Positions 4,358 through 39,263 of a stretch of DNA of 46,715 bases are shown one piece after another. A program made the translations under genes and the position numbers. The notes under the pieces were generated by a model. That model was not told the origin of the DNA and did not search any database. It saw only the letters and a program-made list of their open reading frames with translations. Each line of letters starts with the position of its first letter. Position 1 is the first letter of the stretch. This DNA is from Methanomassiliicoccales archaeon (GTDB lineage: Archaea; Thermoplasmatota; Thermoplasmata; SG8-5; JAGLSY01): NCBI GenBank assembly GCA_030672365.1, contig DAOVGM010000023.1, positions 1-46,715 on the forward strand, read 5' to 3'.

Positions 4358-4424
4358 TGGTTTCACCTTTAATCGTTGGTGTATACAACCCCCCATATAT
4401 TTAGTTTTTATTTTTACAGTTGAT

Positions 4425-4680
4425 GGTCGAGAACGCCCAAGCTCTTTAGGCTTGGGATGGATCGACCAGTATCTTGGTAAAGAAGGGAATCCGCCGTATG
4501 CTCATCGATAAGTAGTCACATAAACACGAAGCCAAGATACTGGCTTCGGGAATTTGAGCATATGGCTGTTTAAATGTGAACTTCCAGGCCAGGTTCACAA
4601 CGCCAAGTCGTTTCGCAAAACACGTAGTGGTTTGCGTTAAGACGAGCTGTGGCTCGTCTGTTTATGGCCTGGTAGTTTAC
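4425..4680 (+). ncRNA. Structured repeat element copy 1 (three-copy family); candidate ncRNA or IS200/IS605-derived non-autonomous element
   Basis: Stems: GGTCGA(4425)/TCGACC(4462); CCCAAGC/GCTTGGG; GCCGTATGCTC(4493)/GAGCATATGGC(4556); CGAAGCCA/TGGCTTCG; GTGAACT..CCAGGCC(4576)/GGCCTGG..AGTTTAC(ends 4680); GACGAGC/GCTCGTC. Homologous copies at 23792 and 34724. Confidence 0.8.
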
Positions 4681-4756
4681 AGAGAACAAAGGAAAAAGTT
4701 ATAATACAGTTTCATTATATCGGTTTTGTAGCTACATTGTAGTTGGGAGGCCTTTG

Positions 4757-4897
4757 ATGGAAGACACACCTTCTAAATTTGAGGTTTACGGTCAGGAGAT
4801 GATCGAGAAGCACGTGAAAAAGTCTGGCAACAGCGGCAGGATATACCTTCCACCTGATTGGATAGGCAAGAAGGTCAAGATAATAAGGGTGGAGTGA
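4757..4897 (+). CDS. DUF2080-family transposon-associated small protein (AbrB/MazE-like appearance)
   Basis: Not in the ORF track. ATG at 4757, stop TGA 4895-4897: MEDTPSKFEVYGQEMIEKHVKKSGNSGRIYLPPDWIGKKVKIIRVE. The 'VKKSGNSGRIYLP.DWIGKKVK' signature matches archaeal DUF2080. SD GGGAGG upstream. Confidence 0.8.
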   Translation: MEDTPSKFEVYGQEMIEKHVKKSGNSGRIYLPPDWIGKKVKIIRVE

Positions 4898-6520: not shown

Positions 6521-7864
6521 ATGGTAGAAGCAGAAGTGAAATACCCGACAGAATCATTAAAGTGCTGGAACAAGGCAAAAGATATCAGAATGAAGTATTA
6601 CCAAGATTACGCAGAGGCCCATGACAAAGGCGGGCTCAGGTGGGCTGGCGGGGCCTGGACCTTCGATGCGATCCCAGCAGGCCTTGGGGATGATGTATAT
6701 CCGATAACCAGTGAGCCATACGGCGCATCAATCGCGTTCGACAAGGAACTCTCATTGGAATGCATGGAGGCAACCGAAGTAAAGGGCTACCCCAGAGACT
6801 TGTGTTCCTACATGCGCAACTACTGGGGCTCGATACTTACGGACAAGTTCGCATTCGGATACAAGGACGGAGAATTCATGCCCAGATTTGCAGGTGCCGA
6901 ACCCCTGCCGTTCCCGAAACCCGATTTCCTCTGGCAGGACCACATATGCTGCTCGCATGCCAAGTGGTACCAGGTTGTGTCAGAACTCGAAGGTGGGATA
7001 CCAACATACACAGTGGACAACGCTGTAGGGCCAGCTCACGAGATCAATGATAGAAAAATTAAGTTCGTTGTTGAGCAGCTAAAGGAAGGCATCACATTTC
7101 TGGAGAAGACCACTGGCCGAGACTTTGATGATGAACTTATGTACAAGGCCATAAGGAATCACTTTGTTTCAACATCGAAGTGGGCCGAGATCTGCGAGCT
7201 GAACAAAGCCATTCCAGCACCACTGGATGAAAAATCCATCTACTCGCTCTATGTGTTCGGCACTCTTCAAAAGGCAGGGCAACAGGTGGCTGATTTTTAT
7301 GAAAAAGACCTTCTTCCGGAAGTACAGGACAGGGTCAGAAGAGGCATCGCCGCAGTCCCGACCGAGCGTTTCAGGGTGATGTCGGACACACAACCGCCGT
7401 GGAGTTTCCTCAAGGTGTTCAGATATCTCGAGAAGTTCGGTTGCGTTTCCGTCGGTTCTCTATACACCTTCGGGCTCATCGGCCAATGGGAAATAAAAGA
7501 GGACGGCACCTGGGGTCCGATGCCTATTCCGGACGTGGAGTTCTCCGGCAGAGACCAGGCTCTCTACGAGTATGTGAAATACGAATTGAACAAGCCGGAA
7601 TGGCAGCATTTCTATTCCTGTCATATCAAGAGCGACATGATGGTCAGGATAGCCAGGGAGTGGAAGCTCGATGGCGCGATGCTCCATTACAACAGAGGTT
7701 GCGAGGGCTTGAGCATCGGAATTGCGGAAAACAGACTGGCACTTCTCGATGCAGGCTTTCCGGTAATGGCATTCGAAGGAAATAATGCGGATGAGAGGGA
7801 ATTCGACGAGGCCAGGACAAAGGCCAAGATAGACGCGTTCATGGAAACACTTGGAGCAAAATAA
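6521..7864 (+). CDS. bzdO-like: Benzoyl-CoA reductase family subunit (BzdO/BcrB-like)
   Basis: HgdB-family sequence ([60 protein letters not shown]); follows the BzdN-like gene. Confidence 0.85.
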
Positions 7865-7871
7865 TGGAGGA

Positions 7872-8657
7872 ATGAAGATGATCACAATGGGAATAGACAT
7901 GGGAGCGAAGACCATAAAAGTCGTGATACTGAAAGACAACGAAATCATTGGAAAATCCATCGTGGTGGCAGGCTTTGAGGTGGAAAAAATGGCCAACGAG
8001 GCGATCGACAAGGCCCTGAGCGAAGCCGGCATTACGAGGGACGACATATCCAAAACAGTCTCGACTGGTGCTGGTGAGAAACAGGCCCCCTTCTACGACG
8101 AGACTAAATCCGTGGTGGGCTGTGATTCGCTCGGAGCGGCATTTCTTCATCCGCCTGTCAGATGCGTCATAGATGTCGGCGCGGAAGAGGGCAGGGGAAT
8201 GAGATGTGACGAGACCGGTAAGATACTGGACTTTGAGGTCAATGAGAAATGCGCGGCCGGTGCAGGAGCTTTCACAGAGGCAATGTCCCGAGCATTGGAA
8301 GTGCCACTTGAAGAGCTGGGCGCCCTGTCTTTGAAGGCGACGGAGGACGTCCCGATGAACGCTCAGTGCACTGTATTTGCGGAATCTGAGGTCGTGACGA
8401 TGGTACACAACAACGTTCCGAAGGAAAACATGGCAAAAGCAGTTCACGACGCAATGGCCAGCAGGATAACTTCGATGGTCAGGAAGATAGGCTTCAAGAA
8501 AGATGTGGTCCTCATAGGCGGTGTGGCAAAGAACGTCGGTTTTGTGAGCTCTCTCAATGCTGACCTTGAACTTGAAGTCGTTGTACCAGAAGAGCCGGAG
8601 TTCGTCGGAGCCCTGGGCGCGGCATTGGCCGCGGCCGGCTGGAAAGGAGGTGCATGA
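7872..8657 (+). CDS. bzdP-like: BadF/BadG/BcrA/BcrD-type ATPase (activase) subunit, BzdP-like
   Basis: ASKHA phosphate motif GIDMGAKTIKVVIL, KCAAGAGAF, QCTVFAESEV and GGVAKN; start after GGAGG. Confidence 0.85.
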   Translation: MKMITMGIDMGAKTIKVVILKDNEIIGKSIVVAGFEVEKMANEAIDKALSEAGITRDDISKTVSTGAGEKQAPFYDETKSVVGCDSLGAAFLHPPVRCVIDVGAEEGRGMRCDETGKILDFEVNEKCAAGAGAFTEAMSRALEVPLEELGALSLKATEDVPMNAQCTVFAESEVVTMVHNNVPKENMAKAVHDAMASRITSMVRKIGFKKDVVLIGGVAKNVGFVSSLNADLELEVVVPEEPEFVGALGAALAAAGWKGGA

Positions 8658-8658
8658 C

Positions 8659-9525
8659 ATGACGGAAAAACAAGAGTTATGGAGATGGACAGAATCGAGA
8701 TGGACCAATCCAGATATAGATTGGAAGGGAAAATTGATCACCTCGGGTGTGGACGTGGGCTCGGTAAGTTCGCAGGCGGTCATATTGGCAGATGGCGAGC
8801 TCTATGCCTATTCCAACATGAGAACCGGTTCGAACAGCCCGGATTCGGCAATGAATGCAATAAACTGGGCAATGGAAGACACAGGTCTTACGCTGGACGA
8901 TATAGCTTATACTGTCGGCACGGGATACGGGCGGGTCAATGTGCCCTTCAGCCAACGCGCCATCACCGAGATCGCGTGCCATGCCAGAGGGGGCAACCAC
9001 ATGTACGGCCCAACTGTAAGGACAATCCTGGACATGGGCGGTCAGGACTGCAAGGCCATACACTGCGATGAAAAGGGCAAGGTGACTAACTTCCTCATGA
9101 ACGACAAATGCGCAGCTGGCACTGGTCGGGGCATGGAGGTTTTTGCAGACCTCCTTGGCGTGTCGATCAATGATATAGGGGAACTTTCTCTTGATATAGA
9201 CGAGGAGCCTCCACCGGTAAGCAGCACGTGTGTGGTCTATGCAAAGACAGAAGCCACCGGCCTTCTCAGGGAAGGTTGGCCGACGAACAAGGTACTGGCT
9301 GCTTACTGCTCGGCGATGGCCCACAGGATAATGACCCTCCTGGAGAGAATTGGCGTCGAGAAGGACTTTGCAATAACCGGCGGGATAGCCAAGAACAAGG
9401 GCGTTATTACCAGGCTGCAGAAAGAGGTAGGGACAACGATATTGGAGACTGAATACGATACTCAAATCGCCGGCGCCCTGGGTGCGGCCCTGTTTGCAAA
9501 AGCACTGAAAGAGAAGGGGAAGTAG
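8659..9525 (+). CDS. bzdQ-like: BadF/BadG/BcrA/BcrD-type ATPase (activase) subunit, BzdQ-like
   Basis: RWTESRWTNPDIDWKGKLITSGVDVGSVSSQAVIL, DMGGQDCK, KCAAGTGRGMEV, TCVVYAKTEATG; ATG at 8659 after AGGAGGTG. Confidence 0.88.
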   Translation: MTEKQELWRWTESRWTNPDIDWKGKLITSGVDVGSVSSQAVILADGELYAYSNMRTGSNSPDSAMNAINWAMEDTGLTLDDIAYTVGTGYGRVNVPFSQRAITEIACHARGGNHMYGPTVRTILDMGGQDCKAIHCDEKGKVTNFLMNDKCAAGTGRGMEVFADLLGVSINDIGELSLDIDEEPPPVSSTCVVYAKTEATGLLREGWPTNKVLAAYCSAMAHRIMTLLERIGVEKDFAITGGIAKNKGVITRLQKEVGTTILETEYDTQIAGALGAALFAKALKEKGK

Positions 9526-17186: not shown

Positions 17187-20141
17187 CTATAGTTCCTCCA
17201 GTGCCTTCCTGCACTTCTCGGCCCTGTGCTTCGAGCCCATTTCCTCAAACATCGAGAGGGCCTTTTCAAGGTGCTCCTTGGCCTTGGCGGTTTCTCCTTT
17301 AGTTTTGAAGAGGAGGCCATACTCATAGAAAAGGCGTGCCAGTTCTTCTTTATTATCAAACTCTTTGATAATTGATTTGGCTTTCTCGAACTCTTCAATA
17401 GATTTGTCCCAATCTTTCTTTTCCCGATAGACCATCCCAAGTACACGATGGCTAATGCCCTCTTCCGTATTCGCCCCGATTTCAACTGATGTCTCAATAG
17501 CTTTTTCTGCGTTTTCGAGTGCTCTCTCAACCTCTCCTAAATCCAGATATGTTGTCGCTAGGCCACGGTAGTTATGAACAGAGAGTTTTTTCTCTCCGAT
17601 TTCCAAACAAATTACTAGGCTCTGCTGGTAGTACTTCAAGGATTTATCTGGGTGGTCTTTACCTATATACACCTCGCCGATGTTACTATAGGTGCTAGCC
17701 ATGAGTTGTTTATCGCCCATTTTTTTGCATATATCCCGGCTCTCCTCGTACATCTCTAACGCGCCATCGTAGTCCCCTCTAGCATAAGCAATGGTCCCCA
17801 TGTTGCCATAGGTTTTAGCCATGCTGCGCTTGTCACCTAGATCCATGAATATCCGTAGGCTCTTCTCATATAGCTCCAGCGTGCGATCGTAATCTCCTCT
17901 GATTTCGGCAATTATTCCCATGTTGCCATAGGTCTTAGCCAAGCCTTGCTTGTCACCCAGACCCTTGTAAATCTGGAGACTTTTCTCCCAAAGCTCTAGC
18001 GTGCCATCGTAATCTCCTCTGTCACTGGCAATTATTCCCATGTTGCCATAGGTCTTGGCCATGCTGCGCCTGTCCCCCAGTTCTTCGTATATGCGCAGAC
18101 TCTTCTCGTACAGCTCTAACGCGCCATCATAATCGCCTCTGGTTCTAGCAATTACTCCCATGCTGTTGTAGGTTTTGGCCATGCCTTGCCCGTCCTCTAG
18201 CTCCTCTTTTATCCGCAGGCTCCTCTCATACAACTCCATGGCGCTATCGTAGTCTCCTCGAAGCTCCTTCAATTTCCCATCTTGGAGTAGTACCTTCGCT
18301 TCCAAGGTCTTGTCCCCACAATCCATAGCATATCCTCTGGCCTGTCCGCTCTCCTCAATAGCTATGTCAACCTCGCCAACGAACTCGTGAATCTTCGAGA
18401 GCCCGAGTAAGGCATCTATCTTCACGCACAAATCCTCTGCGACCTCTAGCGCTCTCTCATATGCCTTTATCGCCTCGTCGGCACCGTAATCTGTCCAGGC
18501 GTGGGCACCCACATCTATCAGATACTTCGCTGCCTTTTCGTTAATGCCAGCCTTGTAATAGTGATGTGCTAGCCCGCTCACCACTTCAACTAGATTTTCT
18601 TTGTTCAGTTCCGCTATCGTGTCAGCAACTATCCTATGATATTCCCTTCTCAGCTCCTCAGAGATGCCGTTGTACAGAACCTCCCTTATCTTACCATGGT
18701 CGAACCTATATTTGTCTTTGAGGTAGTGGATAAGTTTATGGGATTTCTCGATATCGCTCAGGTTCTTGAGGAGCGTGAGCCTTCGCATCTCTGTTGTCTT
18801 TTCTAGGACATCAAGTGAGAACTCCTCGCCCACCACGCTCGCGCACTCAAGTATCTCCCTCTGCTCTTTCCTTAATCTGTCTAAGCGTCTCTTAACAACA
18901 TCATAGACCTTCGTCGGTACATCCAATTTATCAATGTCTGTGACCAATCTCCAGATGCCGTCCTCCCTTCGTGCTATAGCTCCATCCTCGACAAGTAGTT
19001 TTAATATCTCTAGTAGGAAGAAAGGAGTGCCTTCTGTCTCCCTGTAAACCTTGTCCAAGAACCCTTTCTCAAAAGATACTTTCCCAAGGGTGGACTCCAT
19101 GACCTTCTCAGTATCGACCTGGCCTAAGCGTTCCAGAATCATTTTCTCTAACAAGTCCTCCCTGTTCATGTTCTGCATGGCGGTTTCAAGCTGGTGAATC
19201 TTTCCATCCTGGGATTCCATTATGTCCTCTGGTCTATATGTTCCGAGTATCAATGTCTTGTTTTCCTTTGTATTCCGTGCAAGGTAATGAAGCAATGCCA
19301 AAGAGCTGGAATCTGCCCACTGCAAGTCATCTAGGAACAGAAGGTTTGGTTTATCGCTAGATAGCCTTTGGAGCCCAAGAAGCACACTGTCGAATAGATT
19401 TTCTTGGTGAATCTTAGGGTCATCAATGAGGAACCTACCATCGTATTTACCGCTTGTCACTAACTTTGACACTATGTTCTCAACACCCTCAACTTCGTCC
19501 AGGTCTCCATCCCAGTCAGTCAGAAGATTGCCATACTCTTCTTGAACCTCTATCAGTTTTTCCTTCATGTCGTTGACCAGAAACTCATTCAAGCTACCCT
19601 TGGTTACAGTGATCAGGTGCAAACCCTCGCATTCTTCGACCAATATTTTATACTCCTTATATCCCAGTATGTTCAGGCCACCAGTTCGATCGATCTGGTC
19701 GATCATCTGCATTGAATCTTGGACAAAAGTGCCTACGGCCTTCAGCATCGAGGCGAATATCTGCGGGTCAAGCTCTAATTCTTCTCTCTCCGACCTTGTA
19801 ATTAGTAAACCAGCATCGTTCATCAGGTAGGTGGAGACAACTAGCGGTGGCGGGTCCCCCGATATCAGATGGAGTAGGCCAGCTTCCCTGAGAGCTGATT
19901 TAATTGGCATCAGCGGTTCCAGACTTTCAGCCAGGCACCAGCCTTGAATTATCTGAACGCCCTTTGATTCTGCAATCTCAATAAGTTCGGATACCAGGCG
20001 GGTTTTGCCTATACCTGCCTCTCCCGAAATGAAGATGGTGGAGCCTTTACTGGAAATGGCATTGTCTAGAGATTGTTTAAGTTTAGATAATTCCACATCC
20101 CTTCCAACAAGGTCTGGGGTTTTGATGGCTAGCTCTTCCAT
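17187..20141 (-). CDS. STAND/AAA-type ATPase with inserted 'DWDGDLD' domain and C-terminal TPR array
   Basis: LVGRDVELSKL, Walker A FISGEAGIGKTRLV, Walker B PNLLFLDDLQWAD, about 8-10 TPRs. Start placed at MEELAIKTPDLVGRD. Confidence 0.85.
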   Translation of the reverse strand: MEELAIKTPDLVGRDVELSKLKQSLDNAISSKGSTIFISGEAGIGKTRLVSELIEIAESKGVQIIQGWCLAESLEPLMPIKSALREAGLLHLISGDPPPLVVSTYLMNDAGLLITRSEREELELDPQIFASMLKAVGTFVQDSMQMIDQIDRTGGLNILGYKEYKILVEECEGLHLITVTKGSLNEFLVNDMKEKLIEVQEEYGNLLTDWDGDLDEVEGVENIVSKLVTSGKYDGRFLIDDPKIHQENLFDSVLLGLQRLSSDKPNLLFLDDLQWADSSSLALLHYLARNTKENKTLILGTYRPEDIMESQDGKIHQLETAMQNMNREDLLEKMILERLGQVDTEKVMESTLGKVSFEKGFLDKVYRETEGTPFFLLEILKLLVEDGAIARREDGIWRLVTDIDKLDVPTKVYDVVKRRLDRLRKEQREILECASVVGEEFSLDVLEKTTEMRRLTLLKNLSDIEKSHKLIHYLKDKYRFDHGKIREVLYNGISEELRREYHRIVADTIAELNKENLVEVVSGLAHHYYKAGINEKAAKYLIDVGAHAWTDYGADEAIKAYERALEVAEDLCVKIDALLGLSKIHEFVGEVDIAIEESGQARGYAMDCGDKTLEAKVLLQDGKLKELRGDYDSAMELYERSLRIKEELEDGQGMAKTYNSMGVIARTRGDYDGALELYEKSLRIYEELGDRRSMAKTYGNMGIIASDRGDYDGTLELWEKSLQIYKGLGDKQGLAKTYGNMGIIAEIRGDYDRTLELYEKSLRIFMDLGDKRSMAKTYGNMGTIAYARGDYDGALEMYEESRDICKKMGDKQLMASTYSNIGEVYIGKDHPDKSLKYYQQSLVICLEIGEKKLSVHNYRGLATTYLDLGEVERALENAEKAIETSVEIGANTEEGISHRVLGMVYREKKDWDKSIEEFEKAKSIIKEFDNKEELARLFYEYGLLFKTKGETAKAKEHLEKALSMFEEMGSKHRAEKCRKALEEL
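17641..18260 (-). repeat. 120-bp period tandem repeats encoding ~40-aa kinesin-light-chain-like TPR units
   Basis: Near-identical blocks 'cccatgttgccataggt(t/c)tt(a/g)gcca' recur exactly every 120 bp (about 17797, 17917, 18037; diverged at 18157). Confidence 0.85.
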
Positions 20142-23657: not shown

Positions 23658-23791
23658 CTTATCTCCTTCAATTATTTGAGTACAGTGGAATAAATCATAA
23701 GTTGCATCTTATTGTTCATATCCACAAATATAGCAACCAGGAATTATCATGGAACCTATTAATCATTTTGGTGTTTTGATATTATTGTCAA

Positions 23792-24015
23792 AGGTCAAGA
23801 ACACTCAGGTCTTTAGGCCTGAGATGAATTGACCTGAATATCATTAAAAGGAGGAGACCGCCGTATGCGCATCAATACCTATTGAAGGAACTCGAAGTCA
23901 TCAACTTCGAGAAATCGCGCATATGGCCGCTTAAAAGTGAACTTCCAGGCCAGGATAGAAACGCCAGGTTGTTAAGACGAGCTGTGGCTCGTCTGTTTAT
24001 GGCCAGGTAGTTTAC
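23792..24015 (+). ncRNA. Structured repeat element copy 2
   Basis: Stems: AGGTCAA(23792)/TTGACCT(23829); CTCAGG/CCTGAG; GCCGTATGCGC(23860)/GCGCATATGGC(23917); CTCGAAGT/ACTTCGAG; GTGAACT..(23937)/AGTTTAC(ends 24015); GACGAGC/GCTCGTC. Compensatory changes relative to copy 1. Confidence 0.8.
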
Positions 24016-24103: not shown

Positions 24104-24895
24104 ATGAAAAGTGAGGAATATTTCGCAGGCATCGATGTCGGGACATCGTACGTGAAAACCGCGATCATAGACGATAAAAACGATATCATAGGCTCCTTCA
24201 TAGAACGTACTGGTGCAGATATAAAGTCATCAATTAATGTCGCCTTTGAAGGGGCCATTGCTGAGGCCGGAATACCCAGATCAATGATAAGGAATGTTAC
24301 TGCAACAGGATTTGGAAAGAGCCAGGCACCTGTTGCCGACACGGTAAAAACAGAGATAAGCTGCCATGCCAAAGGTGCTTTTCATCATTTTCCAGGAAAA
24401 ATCACGATCATCGATATCGGAGGCCAGGACACAAAAATCATAAAAGTCGACGAACATGGGAAAAGATTGGGTTTCAAGATGAACAGAAAGTGTGCCGCAG
24501 GGACAGGAGCGTTCCTGGAAGAGATCGCAGCCAGACTTAATTTATCAATGGACGAGATGAACACTCTTGCAGTCAAGTCTGACAAAGAAGCCGCTTTGGG
24601 GAGTTTCTGTACAGTTTTTGCAATCACAGAGGTGATCACACGCGTTAAAGCGGGAGAGAAAGTGGAAAACATGGTCAGGGGCGCATTTGAATCGGTTGCC
24701 AGAAGGGTTATCGAGATGGATGTGCTGGATGGCCAAGTGGTTATGACTGGCGGCGTGGTGGCACACAACGACATAATTGCCGACATTCTGGGTGCACTTA
24801 TTGAAAACAAGATCTCGATTCCACCACAACCCCAACTGACTGGCGCTTTCGGAGCCGCGCTGTTTGCGAGAGAAGGTCAAGAACCAGAAAAATAG
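24104..24895 (+). CDS. hgdC-like: Acyl-CoA dehydratase activase (BadF/HgdC family)
   Basis: AGIDVGTSYVKTAII, IIDIGGQDTKIIKVD, RKCAAGTGAFLEEIA, GSFCTVFAITEV, GGVVAHN. Confidence 0.9.
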   Translation: MKSEEYFAGIDVGTSYVKTAIIDDKNDIIGSFIERTGADIKSSINVAFEGAIAEAGIPRSMIRNVTATGFGKSQAPVADTVKTEISCHAKGAFHHFPGKITIIDIGGQDTKIIKVDEHGKRLGFKMNRKCAAGTGAFLEEIAARLNLSMDEMNTLAVKSDKEAALGSFCTVFAITEVITRVKAGEKVENMVRGAFESVARRVIEMDVLDGQVVMTGGVVAHNDIIADILGALIENKISIPPQPQLTGAFGAALFAREGQEPEK

Positions 24896-34718: not shown

Positions 34719-34723
34719 ATTTA

Positions 34724-34931
34724 CTGTCGTCCCATAAACACCCTGTCCTTCAGGGCAGGGATAATGTAAGACGACAGCCAGAGGTGAGGCCGCCGTATGC
34801 TCATCGATAATCATGCATCGAAACTCAAAGCCAATAACTTCTGGTTTTGAGTAATCGAGCATATGGCTGCTTGAATGTAAACTTTCAGGCCAGGATAACA
34901 ACGCACGATCATTTATGGCCTAGTAGTTTAC
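34724..34931 (+). ncRNA. Structured repeat element copy 3
   Basis: Stems: CTGTCGT(34724)/ACGACAG(34771); CCCTGTCC-TTCA-GGGCAGGG; GCCGTATGCTC(34792)/GAGCATATGGC(34857); ACTCAAAGCCA/TGGTTTTGAGT; GTAAACT..AGGCC(34877)/GGCCT..AGTTTAC(ends 34931). Confidence 0.78.
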
Positions 34932-35057: not shown

Positions 35058-38000
35058 ATGACGCCTACAAAGAAACGTTTTACCGAGGATTTCATCTCCA
35101 AGTGGAGTAAAGCATCCAGTCCGGAGGAGGTTAACCGGACAGAAGAACTTTTGAAGCGGCAGGAGGCTCTTTTAAGAAAGGACCCGGACAATGCCAGGCT
35201 CTGGATGGCCTGCGGTGAAACCCTCCAGATACTCGGAAAGCACAGCGAGGCCCTGATAGCCTTCTTGAAGGCCAGGGAGTTGGAGCCGACCCTGCCCGGT
35301 CTGAAATTGTCTATTTCAAATGCCCAAGCGCGCGCCGGAAAGCCTGTCGAGGCGGTATCTGGCTATCTTTTGAGTTTACAGGAAGTTTGTGAGTCCATAG
35401 ACAGCCCCCACCTTCATAAACTCAAGGTCAGGGAAAGCGTCGACGACATACTGAAACAGATGTCCCGCGAGCTGTCTTCCGATCCCGAGCGTCAGAGAAA
35501 GGCACAGGCAGTCAACATCCTGACGGGAGTGCCGGGAATCGGCCACCTGAAGGCCAAGGTGCTTTTCGATGCCGGTTTCAGGTCAATCAAGGATTTGAAC
35601 GAGGCCAGTGTCGACGAGCTGGCCGAGGTCGAGGGCATAGGGCTCAAGACAGCCCAGAAGATTAAAATCGTGGTGACATTCCAGGAGAAGGCTGAGGGCA
35701 GACTGGAAGACATGCCGGGCGTCATAGGCCTGGACACCGACGAGAAAGAGGAAATGGAATGCCCCTTGTGTAAGACGATTTTGAGCGCGAGCTCCGCTGT
35801 CTGTTACGAGTGCGGCATGAAGTTCAAAGAGGCCGGCGATACAGAGGACGAGGACGACCTTCATGGACTGCTGGCCGAGTTCGACAGCATTTTGGCAGCA
35901 AAACCAGACGCCATCGCCACCTGGAATCAGAAAGGCGGCGTACTGACCAAGCTGGAAAGATATGAAGAAGCCATCAACGCATTCAACGAAGTTACTGTTA
36001 TCGACCCCAATTATCCAGGCGTCTGGAACATGAAGGCCGAGGTATTCACGAAGATGGGGGAACATCAGAAGGCCGCTTCTTGCTTCAAGCGGGCAATGGA
36101 GTTGGGCGTCGCCACGGCGGTATCGGAGGCGGCGGGTGAAGAGGTCGAGGAACTTCTTCATGAACTGGACACATTCGAGGACGATTCGGAAATAGACAAA
36201 GAAGTCTGGTTGTCCGAGCAGAGGGCGCTCCAGAAAGAGCTTCTGGACCTGGCAGAGGTCGACACGGACGATATCGACCTAGAACTGCCGTCACTGGACA
36301 AAGAAGAGGCGGAACTGCTCGACATCATCATGAAGGACGAGAAAACAGCGGCCGAGTCAGTTGAGGTTGAGATACCCGACATTGACGAAGAGGACATCAA
36401 GAAAATCGAGGAGATCACGAGGGCGCTGGATGAGGAGCGCGTCCCGCTGGCGCGCGTTGAGGAGGAGGTTACCCCAGAGGAGGTTGCGGCCATCGAAGCG
36501 GTCACGAAACCACTGGTGGGCAAGGCCCCGGAGCCAAAAGACCGGGGCATGACCAACGGGCTCGGGCGAGGCATGACTAACGGCCTCGCTAGAAAGGGGA
36601 TGATCAACGGCACCGGGCGCACGAACGGCCTGACGAATGGCGTGGGCAGAACCAATGGTATGACTAACGACCTCACTAACGGTCTGGGCAGGACAAATGG
36701 CTTGACCAATGGTGTTGGGCGTACAAATGGTCTCACCAACGGCCTGACGAATGGCCTGGGCAGGACAAATGGCTTGACCAACGGTGTTGGGCGTACAAAT
36801 GGTCTCACCAACGGCCTGACTAACGGCCTTACAAACGGAGTAACGAACGGTTTGACCAACGGCCTCAGGGCGCTCAAGTCCGGGATGACCAACGGGCTGA
36901 CGAACGGAACCGGCCTGACAAATGGTCTCGGCGGCAGACGATTCAGCAGGGAAGCCAGACGCAACAAATGGAAGTTGTACGTGATACCCTTGGTAACCAT
37001 GCTTATGCTGCTGGTTCCGATGGTTTCGACGACTGCCCCGCAACAAGAGCAGTTTCCGATCAACATAGACGGCGATTTCGCTGACTGGTCCAACGTGCAG
37101 TCGATTTCGTCGAACCCAGTGACGGGCACTTTCAACGCCAACGTTGACGTAACGAGCTGCGCGATGGAGAATAATCTGGAGAGATACCTCTCGTTCTGTG
37201 TCGATGTTGTGGGTATAATGTTCGCTGGCGAGCCGGTAACTCAAGAAGGTTATGTCGACGTCGTGCACATCCTCATAGACACCGACAACAACGACATGAC
37301 TGGCTATTCTGTTCGCGGCATCGGGGCGAACTACATGCTGAGCATAAGCGGATGGAACGGAGGAATCGTTTCTTCCTCGATTTCGGCGTATTCCGACATG
37401 ACAAACCAGGACAACTTCAACGGCTTTATATCGATGACGAACATCCGCGCGGAAATCAACGGCCAGCATCTCGAAACCCAGGTGGCGTGGTCTGCCATGG
37501 ACATTCTGGAGCCGACCGGCGTGACGGCAGTTGTTCACACCCAATCATGGAACGGGCACCACGACTTCTCTGACAGTTTCGTGACCAACGCCCTGACTAT
37601 AGCCAGCGCAACTCAAACCAGCCGGGCATCCGAGACGATGTCCGGGGCAAACCAACCGCTTCTTGATATCGGCATTACCGCGGTAAACGCGGACGTAGAT
37701 ATGGCGAACATTAGAGTTTCGTTGGTGGGCACATTCCAGCAAACCGACGTCGACGCCCTGCGCCTGATTGATTCCGCAGGGGCGGCGGTCTCTCAAATCA
37801 CCAATCCATCGCAAAACACAACATTGAGCATGGTAGGCACCTCAATTCCGAGAGGCCAGACATCCACATTCACTCTTCAAGCTGACATTTCCTCAAACGC
37901 GATTTTGGGCAGAACCATCGGAGCAAGGATCGAAAAGGCAGGCGACATCTCGCTCTTGAACGGCAGCGCGAGTCTGGTTACCATCGAAACCGCCAACGAC

Positions 38001-39263
38001 CTCGGTTACATCAGCGTCGTTCCCGGCAGCCCGATCGTCGACGGGGGATTTTCAGACTGGACATCAGAAAGCAGTGTCGACGGAGCAGGCGAATCAGGAT
38101 TGAGCCAGAGCGCCGACATAAGCAGGTACGGCGCCCAGAACGATGGCTCGAGTTTATTCTTCTATCTCAGTACGGCGGACGACATAATGGCCGGTTATTC
38201 TGTACCCTCCAGATCATCCCGTGCACCATCAGGTCAGACAACAACTACCACCACAGCTGCGGACAGTGACGGCGACGGCCTCTTGGATGACGAAGAGCCG
38301 GAAGAGTTCAGGTTTGACTTCGACAACGACGGCATTCCTGATACGGAGGATAACGACAAGGACAACGACGGAATACTGGACTACGGCTCGGGGGGAAACG
38401 ACACCGAGCTCTACAACCCGGTCACGAAAGCCACGAGGTTCATAGGGACTTACAGGCGTCCCGCAATTACTGGCTATGACACAGCCCGTATTTTCATAAA
38501 CTCGGATAACAACACCGCAACCGGGTATTCAGGAAACGGAATAGGCGCGGATTATATGCTCGAATTCCTCGGCAAGGGTGGGGTGGTAAAAGAGGCCACA
38601 TCTTACGTATTCTCGGGTGCTTACCAGGGATCTTGGAACTGGTCGGAATCCGGAGTGCTGGCCTATCAGAAGGATACGATGCAATTGGAGGCTTCGCTGA
38701 ACGTAGCGACAACATCTGACATCGAAGTGTGGTTCGAGACAACTGCTTGGAATGGGGATGAGGACACATCAGATGATGTTGTACATGCGGTACTAGTAAC
38801 ATTTGCCGTCAGGTCTGGCGGTGGGGGTGAAGGTGTGTTGGGACCGACCTTCCCGGTCATGGTCTATGGGGTGGTGAAAAACAGCACAGGCCCCGCACCG
38901 GACGGAACATGGGTCACCATAGTTGTCAAAGACAGTGGTGGCACGCCACAGGCCTGGTACAACACCACGACTTCCACGATTGACGGCACCCAAGGCAGGT
39001 TTGTCAGAACAGGAATATATGTTCAGGCGGGCTGGACAATAGAGCTCAATGTGTCATATACTTGGTCTGGCTCGACATACACTGGCACCAACGGCACGAC
39101 TGTGGTTTCTAATAAGTACCTCTATAATATGGATGTCAATACCACATCTGCAGTTATTCCAGAGTTCAGATTCATCATTTTACCAATACTGGCATTTATT
39201 CCGTTAATTTCAATGAGTAGACGAAGGAGAAATAAGAAAAGAGCGGGCGGTGGTCGAAAATGA
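35058..39263 (+). CDS. Large membrane-spanning protein: TPR + helix-hairpin-helix + Zn ribbon, TNGL-repeat linker, TM, extracellular domain with Ca-binding-type DxDxDG repeats, C-terminal PEF-CTERM-like sorting signal
   Basis: NILTGVPGIGHLKAKVLFDAGF (HhH); CPLC...CYEC (Zn ribbon); GRTNGLTNG repeats; KWKLYVIPLVTMLMLLVPMV (TM); DSDGDGLLDDEE...DNDGIPDTEDNDKDNDGILD; VIPEFRFIILPILAFIPLISMSRRRRNKKR. Confidence 0.85.
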   Translation: MTPTKKRFTEDFISKWSKASSPEEVNRTEELLKRQEALLRKDPDNARLWMACGETLQILGKHSEALIAFLKARELEPTLPGLKLSISNAQARAGKPVEAVSGYLLSLQEVCESIDSPHLHKLKVRESVDDILKQMSRELSSDPERQRKAQAVNILTGVPGIGHLKAKVLFDAGFRSIKDLNEASVDELAEVEGIGLKTAQKIKIVVTFQEKAEGRLEDMPGVIGLDTDEKEEMECPLCKTILSASSAVCYECGMKFKEAGDTEDEDDLHGLLAEFDSILAAKPDAIATWNQKGGVLTKLERYEEAINAFNEVTVIDPNYPGVWNMKAEVFTKMGEHQKAASCFKRAMELGVATAVSEAAGEEVEELLHELDTFEDDSEIDKEVWLSEQRALQKELLDLAEVDTDDIDLELPSLDKEEAELLDIIMKDEKTAAESVEVEIPDIDEEDIKKIEEITRALDEERVPLARVEEEVTPEEVAAIEAVTKPLVGKAPEPKDRGMTNGLGRGMTNGLARKGMINGTGRTNGLTNGVGRTNGMTNDLTNGLGRTNGLTNGVGRTNGLTNGLTNGLGRTNGLTNGVGRTNGLTNGLTNGLTNGVTNGLTNGLRALKSGMTNGLTNGTGLTNGLGGRRFSREARRNKWKLYVIPLVTMLMLLVPMVSTTAPQQEQFPINIDGDFADWSNVQSISSNPVTGTFNANVDVTSCAMENNLERYLSFCVDVVGIMFAGEPVTQEGYVDVVHILIDTDNNDMTGYSVRGIGANYMLSISGWNGGIVSSSISAYSDMTNQDNFNGFISMTNIRAEINGQHLETQVAWSAMDILEPTGVTAVVHTQSWNGHHDFSDSFVTNALTIASATQTSRASETMSGANQPLLDIGITAVNADVDMANIRVSLVGTFQQTDVDALRLIDSAGAAVSQITNPSQNTTLSMVGTSIPRGQTSTFTLQADISSNAILGRTIGARIEKAGDISLLNGSASLVTIETANDLGYISVVPGSPIVDGGFSDWTSESSVDGAGESGLSQSADISRYGAQNDGSSLFFYLSTADDIMAGYSVPSRSSRAPSGQTTTTTTAADSDGDGLLDDEEPEEFRFDFDNDGIPDTEDNDKDNDGILDYGSGGNDTELYNPVTKATRFIGTYRRPAITGYDTARIFINSDNNTATGYSGNGIGADYMLEFLGKGGVVKEATSYVFSGAYQGSWNWSESGVLAYQKDTMQLEASLNVATTSDIEVWFETTAWNGDEDTSDDVVHAVLVTFAVRSGGGGEGVLGPTFPVMVYGVVKNSTGPAPDGTWVTIVVKDSGGTPQAWYNTTTSTIDGTQGRFVRTGIYVQAGWTIELNVSYTWSGSTYTGTNGTTVVSNKYLYNMDVNTTSAVIPEFRFIILPILAFIPLISMSRRRRNKKRAGGGRK
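36541..36950 (+). repeat. Degenerate tandem coding repeat for (R)TNGLTNG(L/V) units
   Basis: Multiple 'ggc ctg ac(g/t) aa(t/c) gg' units at DNA and protein level within the 35058-39263 ORF. Confidence 0.9.

Follow-up and report, generated by a model that had tools for sequence, protein, structure and literature searches.

A probable PATE-like, non-autonomous IS200/IS605-type element, repeated in the genomes of one Thermoplasmata order, and its tnpA-bearing partner in related genomes

The stretch of DNA analysed here (the window) comprises 46,715 nucleotides of a contig assigned to a Methanomassiliicoccales archaeon, and contains three copies of a structured repeat. The copies span 207–263 bp, too short to encode a transposase, and carry subterminal palindromes at their left and right ends. 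The features of the window that concern the repeat are as follows.

4413–4417, forward strand: target pentanucleotide TTTAC to the left of copy 1; the consensus TTTA(G/C) precedes 46 full-length copies in relatives
4418–4680, forward strand: copy 1, non-autonomous IS200-type element, 263 bp, AGTTGATGGTCGAG...GTAGTTTAC
4425–4467, forward strand: left-end subterminal hairpin of copy 1 (predicted fold); the left end of the tnpA-bearing IS has the same hairpin type
4493–4566, forward strand: internal three-way-junction-like domain of copy 1
4576–4680, forward strand: right end of copy 1, with P3 and the terminal TTTAC; this right end is common to the tnpA-bearing IS
4757–4897, forward strand: DUF2080 gene, 46 aa, a neighbour outside the element (PF09853, 28.5 bits, cut-off 21.5)
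23786–24015, forward strand: copy 2, 230 bp, after TTAT
34725–34931, forward strand: copy 3, 207 bp, after TTTAC at 34720–34724

An earlier note, made from the sequence alone, had described, at 4425–4897, a structured element next to a DUF2080 gene. The element is real, with a hairpin CCCAAGCTCTTTAGGCTTGGG at 4436–4456 and a 3' boundary GTAGTTTAC ending at 4680, but its true left end is at 4418, directly after TTTAC. A second hairpin attributed to the same stretch, CCCTGTCCTTCAGGGCAGGG, exists outside it and belongs to copy 3 (approximately 34741–34760). The left-end hairpin of copy 1 has an outer stem GGTCGA/TCGACC, an inner stem CCCAAGC..GCTTGGG and the loop CTTTAG, and P3 of the same copy is formed by GTGAACT-T-CCAGGCCA and TGGCCTGG-T-AGTTTAC, with a T.T mismatch. 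The three copies run into three different 3' neighbours (agagaac.., gccaccc.. and atttttt..), as the earlier note had claimed. The gene upstream of copy 2 and the element also occur together in a relative (L304), and the flanking sequence of copy 3 agrees on both sides with that around copies in a relative (L285), in which the right-end loop carries a second copy. A search of Rfam, using the gathering threshold as well as the E-value mode, found no family that matches the element, HEARO RNA included.

The presence of the DUF2080 gene, which begins 76 nt past copy 1, was confirmed. The genes that follow copies 2 and 3 are a BcrA-type ATPase gene and a TPR-protein gene, and thus DUF2080 is a chance neighbour and the association previously proposed for it is incidental. 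Genes similar to BcrA/BadF-type ATPases are found in two places in the window (7851–9525 and 24104–24895); of these, Pfam confirmed the gene at 24104, and the others were judged from sequence. The window also contains an ORF of 1401 aa with TPR and HHH domains at 35058–39263, including a run of NGLTNG-like repeats at 36615–36936, and four direct repeats at 17677–18276, spaced by 120 nt and 69–72% alike.

Using a covariance model (R1) of the core, built from 22 copies, we found 64 matches at E<0.001 in stretches of the window's own genome assembly (G000; 1.26 Mb, 84% complete), in which BLAST gave 58 matching pieces, with E-values down to 1e-28 excluding the query itself; the partial assembly contains about 60 copies, well beyond what chance would give. 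With the stricter filter that was applied to many genomes, matches were obtained in 12 of the 13 genomes of the order (own genome included) and in none of 48 other Thermoplasmata genomes. Several genomes of the order have at least about 50 matches each. The matches fetched from G008, and one each from G007 and G010, are doubtful and have no typical ends. The relatives that bear names are Thermoplasmata MAGs, such as S2_100 (VMTD01), UBA147 (DAJR01; placed in Methanomassiliicoccales by NCBI), E21_metabat.bin.9, STF1_128 and RS_9_71. We found no description of these elements in the open-licence literature. In G006 and G004, near-identical copies are present at differing sites. In the own genome, the median identity to the nearest copy is 81% and the family looks old; this and the failure to find a transposase there suggest that its copies may now be static. 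The contig of the window (G000:C58) and G012:C69, as well as G000:C32 and G012:C44, are identical wherever they were compared. The two MAG bins concerned have been assigned to different families, which makes it uncertain to which bin the window contig belongs.

The left flanks of 46 full-length copies, when aligned, read T-T-T-A-(G/C), with A at -2 in all 46, T at -3 in 44 and G or C at -1 in 40. Closely related sequences that are free of the element show an intact site and no target duplication (L114/L117, L166/L211 and L116/L208). In four loci (L120, L186, L207 and L285) a copy is nested at a TTTA in another copy's hairpin loop, and the intact site is thereby visible within the interrupted copy itself. 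Presence and absence were also recognized between genera, intergenic copies of G002 having no counterpart in G000 (L273/L225, L276/L241 and L281/L225). The comparison of empty sites in relatives that the earlier note had proposed thus reveals insertion polymorphism. IS608 inserts 3' of TTAC, which remains as its left flank (PMC5934647), and the insertion pattern of the present element, 3' of a similar and likewise retained tetranucleotide, matches this published rule. Between L284 and L268, from different genera, both flanks match but the element lies in opposite orientation, which points to either two separate insertions or an inversion.

The own genome assembly has no match to a Y1 transposase or to TnpB, in agreement with the earlier statement that tnpA and tnpB are missing, and no TnpA was found in G002 (74% complete). 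Y1 transposases are present in seven of the 13 genomes of the order, and in G011 (L089) and G004 (L090) the tnpA gene is flanked by ends of the repeat's type. Both of these elements are 707 bp long, contain tnpA only, with no tnpB inside, lie directly after TTTAG and terminate in GGCTGGTAGTTTAC; the left hairpin of L089 is GGGAGAGAACCCCCAGGACTTTAGGCCTGGGATGAATCGACC and its right end is AACGCCAGCTCCTTTAGGGGCTGGTAGTTTAC. A left hairpin with a CTTTAG-type loop and the right end AACGCCAG..CTTTAGGGGCTGGTAGTTTAC are common to the repeat and the 707-bp IS200. It turns out that the ends are of the IS200/IS605 type, as the earlier note had supposed, and that its idea of a non-autonomous element is borne out by an autonomous tnpA partner in relatives. 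The full-length elements with the same ends for which it had proposed a search exist with tnpA only, and none was found with tnpB. The proteins of L089 and L090 score 107 bits against the IS200/IS605 transposase model NF033573 (cut-off 55) and 30 bits, below the cut-off of 80, against the REP-associated transposase model NF047646, and their PDB matches include solved IS200/IS605 transposases. Their HUH, W and Y motifs (DHVH/NHVH, W-S and Y-I-E-R-x-Q types) and their length of about 155 aa resemble those of TnpA-Y1 subclass 1.1 (IS200), the only subclass found in archaea in that survey (PMC6006769). Unlike that subclass, the Y1 genes here number 0–3 per genome, with no high-copy IS. A motif search of the other Y1 genes of these genomes, including that of G001, did not find ends of the repeat's type.

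The GTTTAC of the right end reads GTAAAC on the opposite strand. Among the gene predictions for G000, made with a simple codon-usage script and no annotation pipeline, 13 genes converge on a right end with their last base at a shared offset of -4. In a stricter test, a stop at this offset was recognized in 19 of 140 elements in the named genus-g4 loci, compared with five of 186 random TTTAC/TTTAG sites; in G000 the numbers were six of 16 elements and two of 77 random sites. Because TTTAC is target and right end alike, insertion at a stop codon likely rebuilds the stop of the converging gene, and purifying selection against other sites may add to the bias. The termini of GTAG REPs have also been reported to often give the flanking gene its stop codon (PMC3733652).

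Between the two ends lies an interior in which stem P1 encloses a small hairpin and P2; in copy 1, P1 is formed by 4493–4504/4555–4566 and P2 by 4527–4534/4541–4548, with the small hairpin in between. Across genera, P1 is GCCGTATGCTCA/TGAGCATATGGC, GCCATGCACC/GGTGCATGGC or CGTTGCATACC/GGTATGCAAC. In an alignment of the 64 own-genome copies fitted to the covariance model, 93.3% of cells pair, compared with 79% in shuffles and 29–40% with slid partners. Double changes were seen in 33 of 36 pairs and amount to 247 cells, compared with 60 in shuffles. A T.T mismatch in P3 is retained in 54 of the 64 aligned copies (a standard pair in five, gaps in five), and a G.T wobble in P1 in 57 (G-C or A-T in five). 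Since the mismatch and the wobble are themselves conserved, blind correction of one palindrome arm by the other is disfavoured as the cause of the pairing. One-sided departures comprise 66 G.T and 40 A.C, and this excess weakly favours folding of the element's own strand.

In G000, a pattern with a tolerance of two mismatches recognises no left end in 46 of the 64 core copies; copy 3, whose left hairpin is divergent, also escapes this pattern and was assigned by hand to the left-end class. These 46 copies still pair in 96, 92 and 90% of cells in P1, P2 and P3, and 204 double changes are kept in them, against 34 that are broken. This pairing may be read as the outcome of selection after insertion or, alternatively, as a legacy of several source subfamilies. 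Five candidate pairs of copies at shared positions were considered as proof of selection after insertion. However, the G002 copies resemble the consensus of their own genome and may reflect replacement or gene conversion, and thus the shared positions leave such selection unproven.

The earlier note had interpreted the feature as an omega-RNA-like guide RNA of a TnpB or IscB nuclease, or its relic, with the bases after GTAGTTTAC as three guides. The fold does look RNA-like, an invariant 3' boundary lies beside variable flanks, and the ends are of the type expected, but TnpB (PF07282 and PF01385) was above cut-off in none of the 13 genomes, while positive control genomes were detected, and the partner element has tnpA alone. 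The putative guides are ordinary flanking DNA: a second 14-mer match, sought for 61 3' flanks and 61 controls in 0.35 Mb of genome only, was found for one flank and two controls. We consider a guide RNA highly improbable. REP elements moved by a REP-associated tyrosine transposase (RAYT) would also be short, structured and extragenic, present in tens of copies, served by a separate Y1 transposase and, as GTAG REPs, able to provide stop codons (PMC3733652). However, the transposase found here passes the IS200 model and fails the REP model by the scores given above, and the elements are about 200–260 bp long with defined left and right ends, whereas the REPs described in that study, from bacteria and with RAYT partners, are palindromes of 20–40 bp; this assignment is very unlikely.

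A cis-acting regulatory RNA, such as a riboswitch or leader of the downstream gene, would agree with the strong pair-preserving variation (the 247 double-changed cells) and with the location of copies 1–3, all upstream of a gene on the same strand. Across copies, however, 26 of the 3' neighbours share the element's strand and 31 have the opposite one, and this lack of orientation bias makes a directional role unlikely; moreover, the neighbours examined are unrelated, and insertion is evident from the intact sites and the nesting. A leader or riboswitch is therefore hardly credible. In this genome, in which no transposase is detectable, the host might have adopted the branched core (P1/P2/P3) for use at the ends of genes, for example as a 3' UTR element or terminator; such adoption would agree with a transposon origin. 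It is favoured by the pairing kept in the left-end-less cores and by the stop codons that converging genes obtain from the right end. On the other hand, the compensated differences could predate insertion, stemming from several source subfamilies, the orientation is unbiased, and few copies occupy positions common with relatives, so that we regard host adoption as rather unlikely.

The feature is very probably a PATE-like non-autonomous member of the IS200/IS605 superfamily, which the TnpA of the separate 707-bp element would move. This assignment is founded on the family and its ends, the matching partner in relatives, the target motif, the duplication-free intact sites and the nesting; mobilisation in trans and single-strand cutting would follow the known mechanism of the family. 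The single strand of the element would fold into the left-end and right-end hairpins, which the IS200-type Y1 transposase would recognise in trans; TnpA would cut the right end after TTTAC, and the strand would be joined 3' of TTTA(G/C) in the target DNA, which would not be duplicated. Additions specific to this order are the conserved internal branched fold and a GTTTAC able to supply a TAA stop to a converging gene, by which insertions at gene ends would be harmless. Counting against this assignment, no TnpA was found in the incomplete assemblies of the own genome and G002, that of G001 is without these ends by motif search, and the internal domain, for which a purely selfish element has no obvious need, is retained in left-end-less copies.

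The PATEs of Haloquadratum walsbyi (PMC3119063) are likewise archaeal, have near-terminal palindromes without terminal inverted repeats, cause no target duplication, undergo nested insertion, are too short for a transposase, have ends resembling those of an IS605-type partner, and are mobile despite scarce intact TnpA. In contrast, the present element occurs in Thermoplasmata, another class, its partner is a tnpA-only IS200, and its copies have a conserved, covarying branched interior. With IS608 of the IS200/IS605 family it shares subterminal hairpins and insertion without duplication, but it lacks internal tnpA and tnpB, and its right end is TTTAC, the same as its left target, whereas that of IS608 is TCAA (PMC5934647). 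The element explains a large body of intergenic sequence in one Thermoplasmata order that looks like RNA and had no annotation, and a partner transposase is provided for it; a misleading trail towards an RNA-guided nuclease is thereby closed. The tens of varying copies per genome constitute a natural data set on which parts of an IS200-type element the transposase needs, and on whether structured selfish DNA persists as gene-end signals after mobility ends.

It is possible, though we put it forward only tentatively, that the internal fold acts as a module, at the level of RNA or of single-stranded DNA, whose function keeps it intact in each copy, either derived from an IS200 leader and enhancing transposition or regulating TnpA, or adopted by the host at gene ends after loss of the transposase. 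In the 707-bp elements, the leader of tnpA has a predicted stem that closes two hairpins, at a similar spacing from the left end; descent of the internal domain from this leader is only a suggestion. L267 and the window at 34786–34931, in copy 3, are near-identical across P1–P2 and divergent elsewhere, which suggests recombination or gene conversion between copies.
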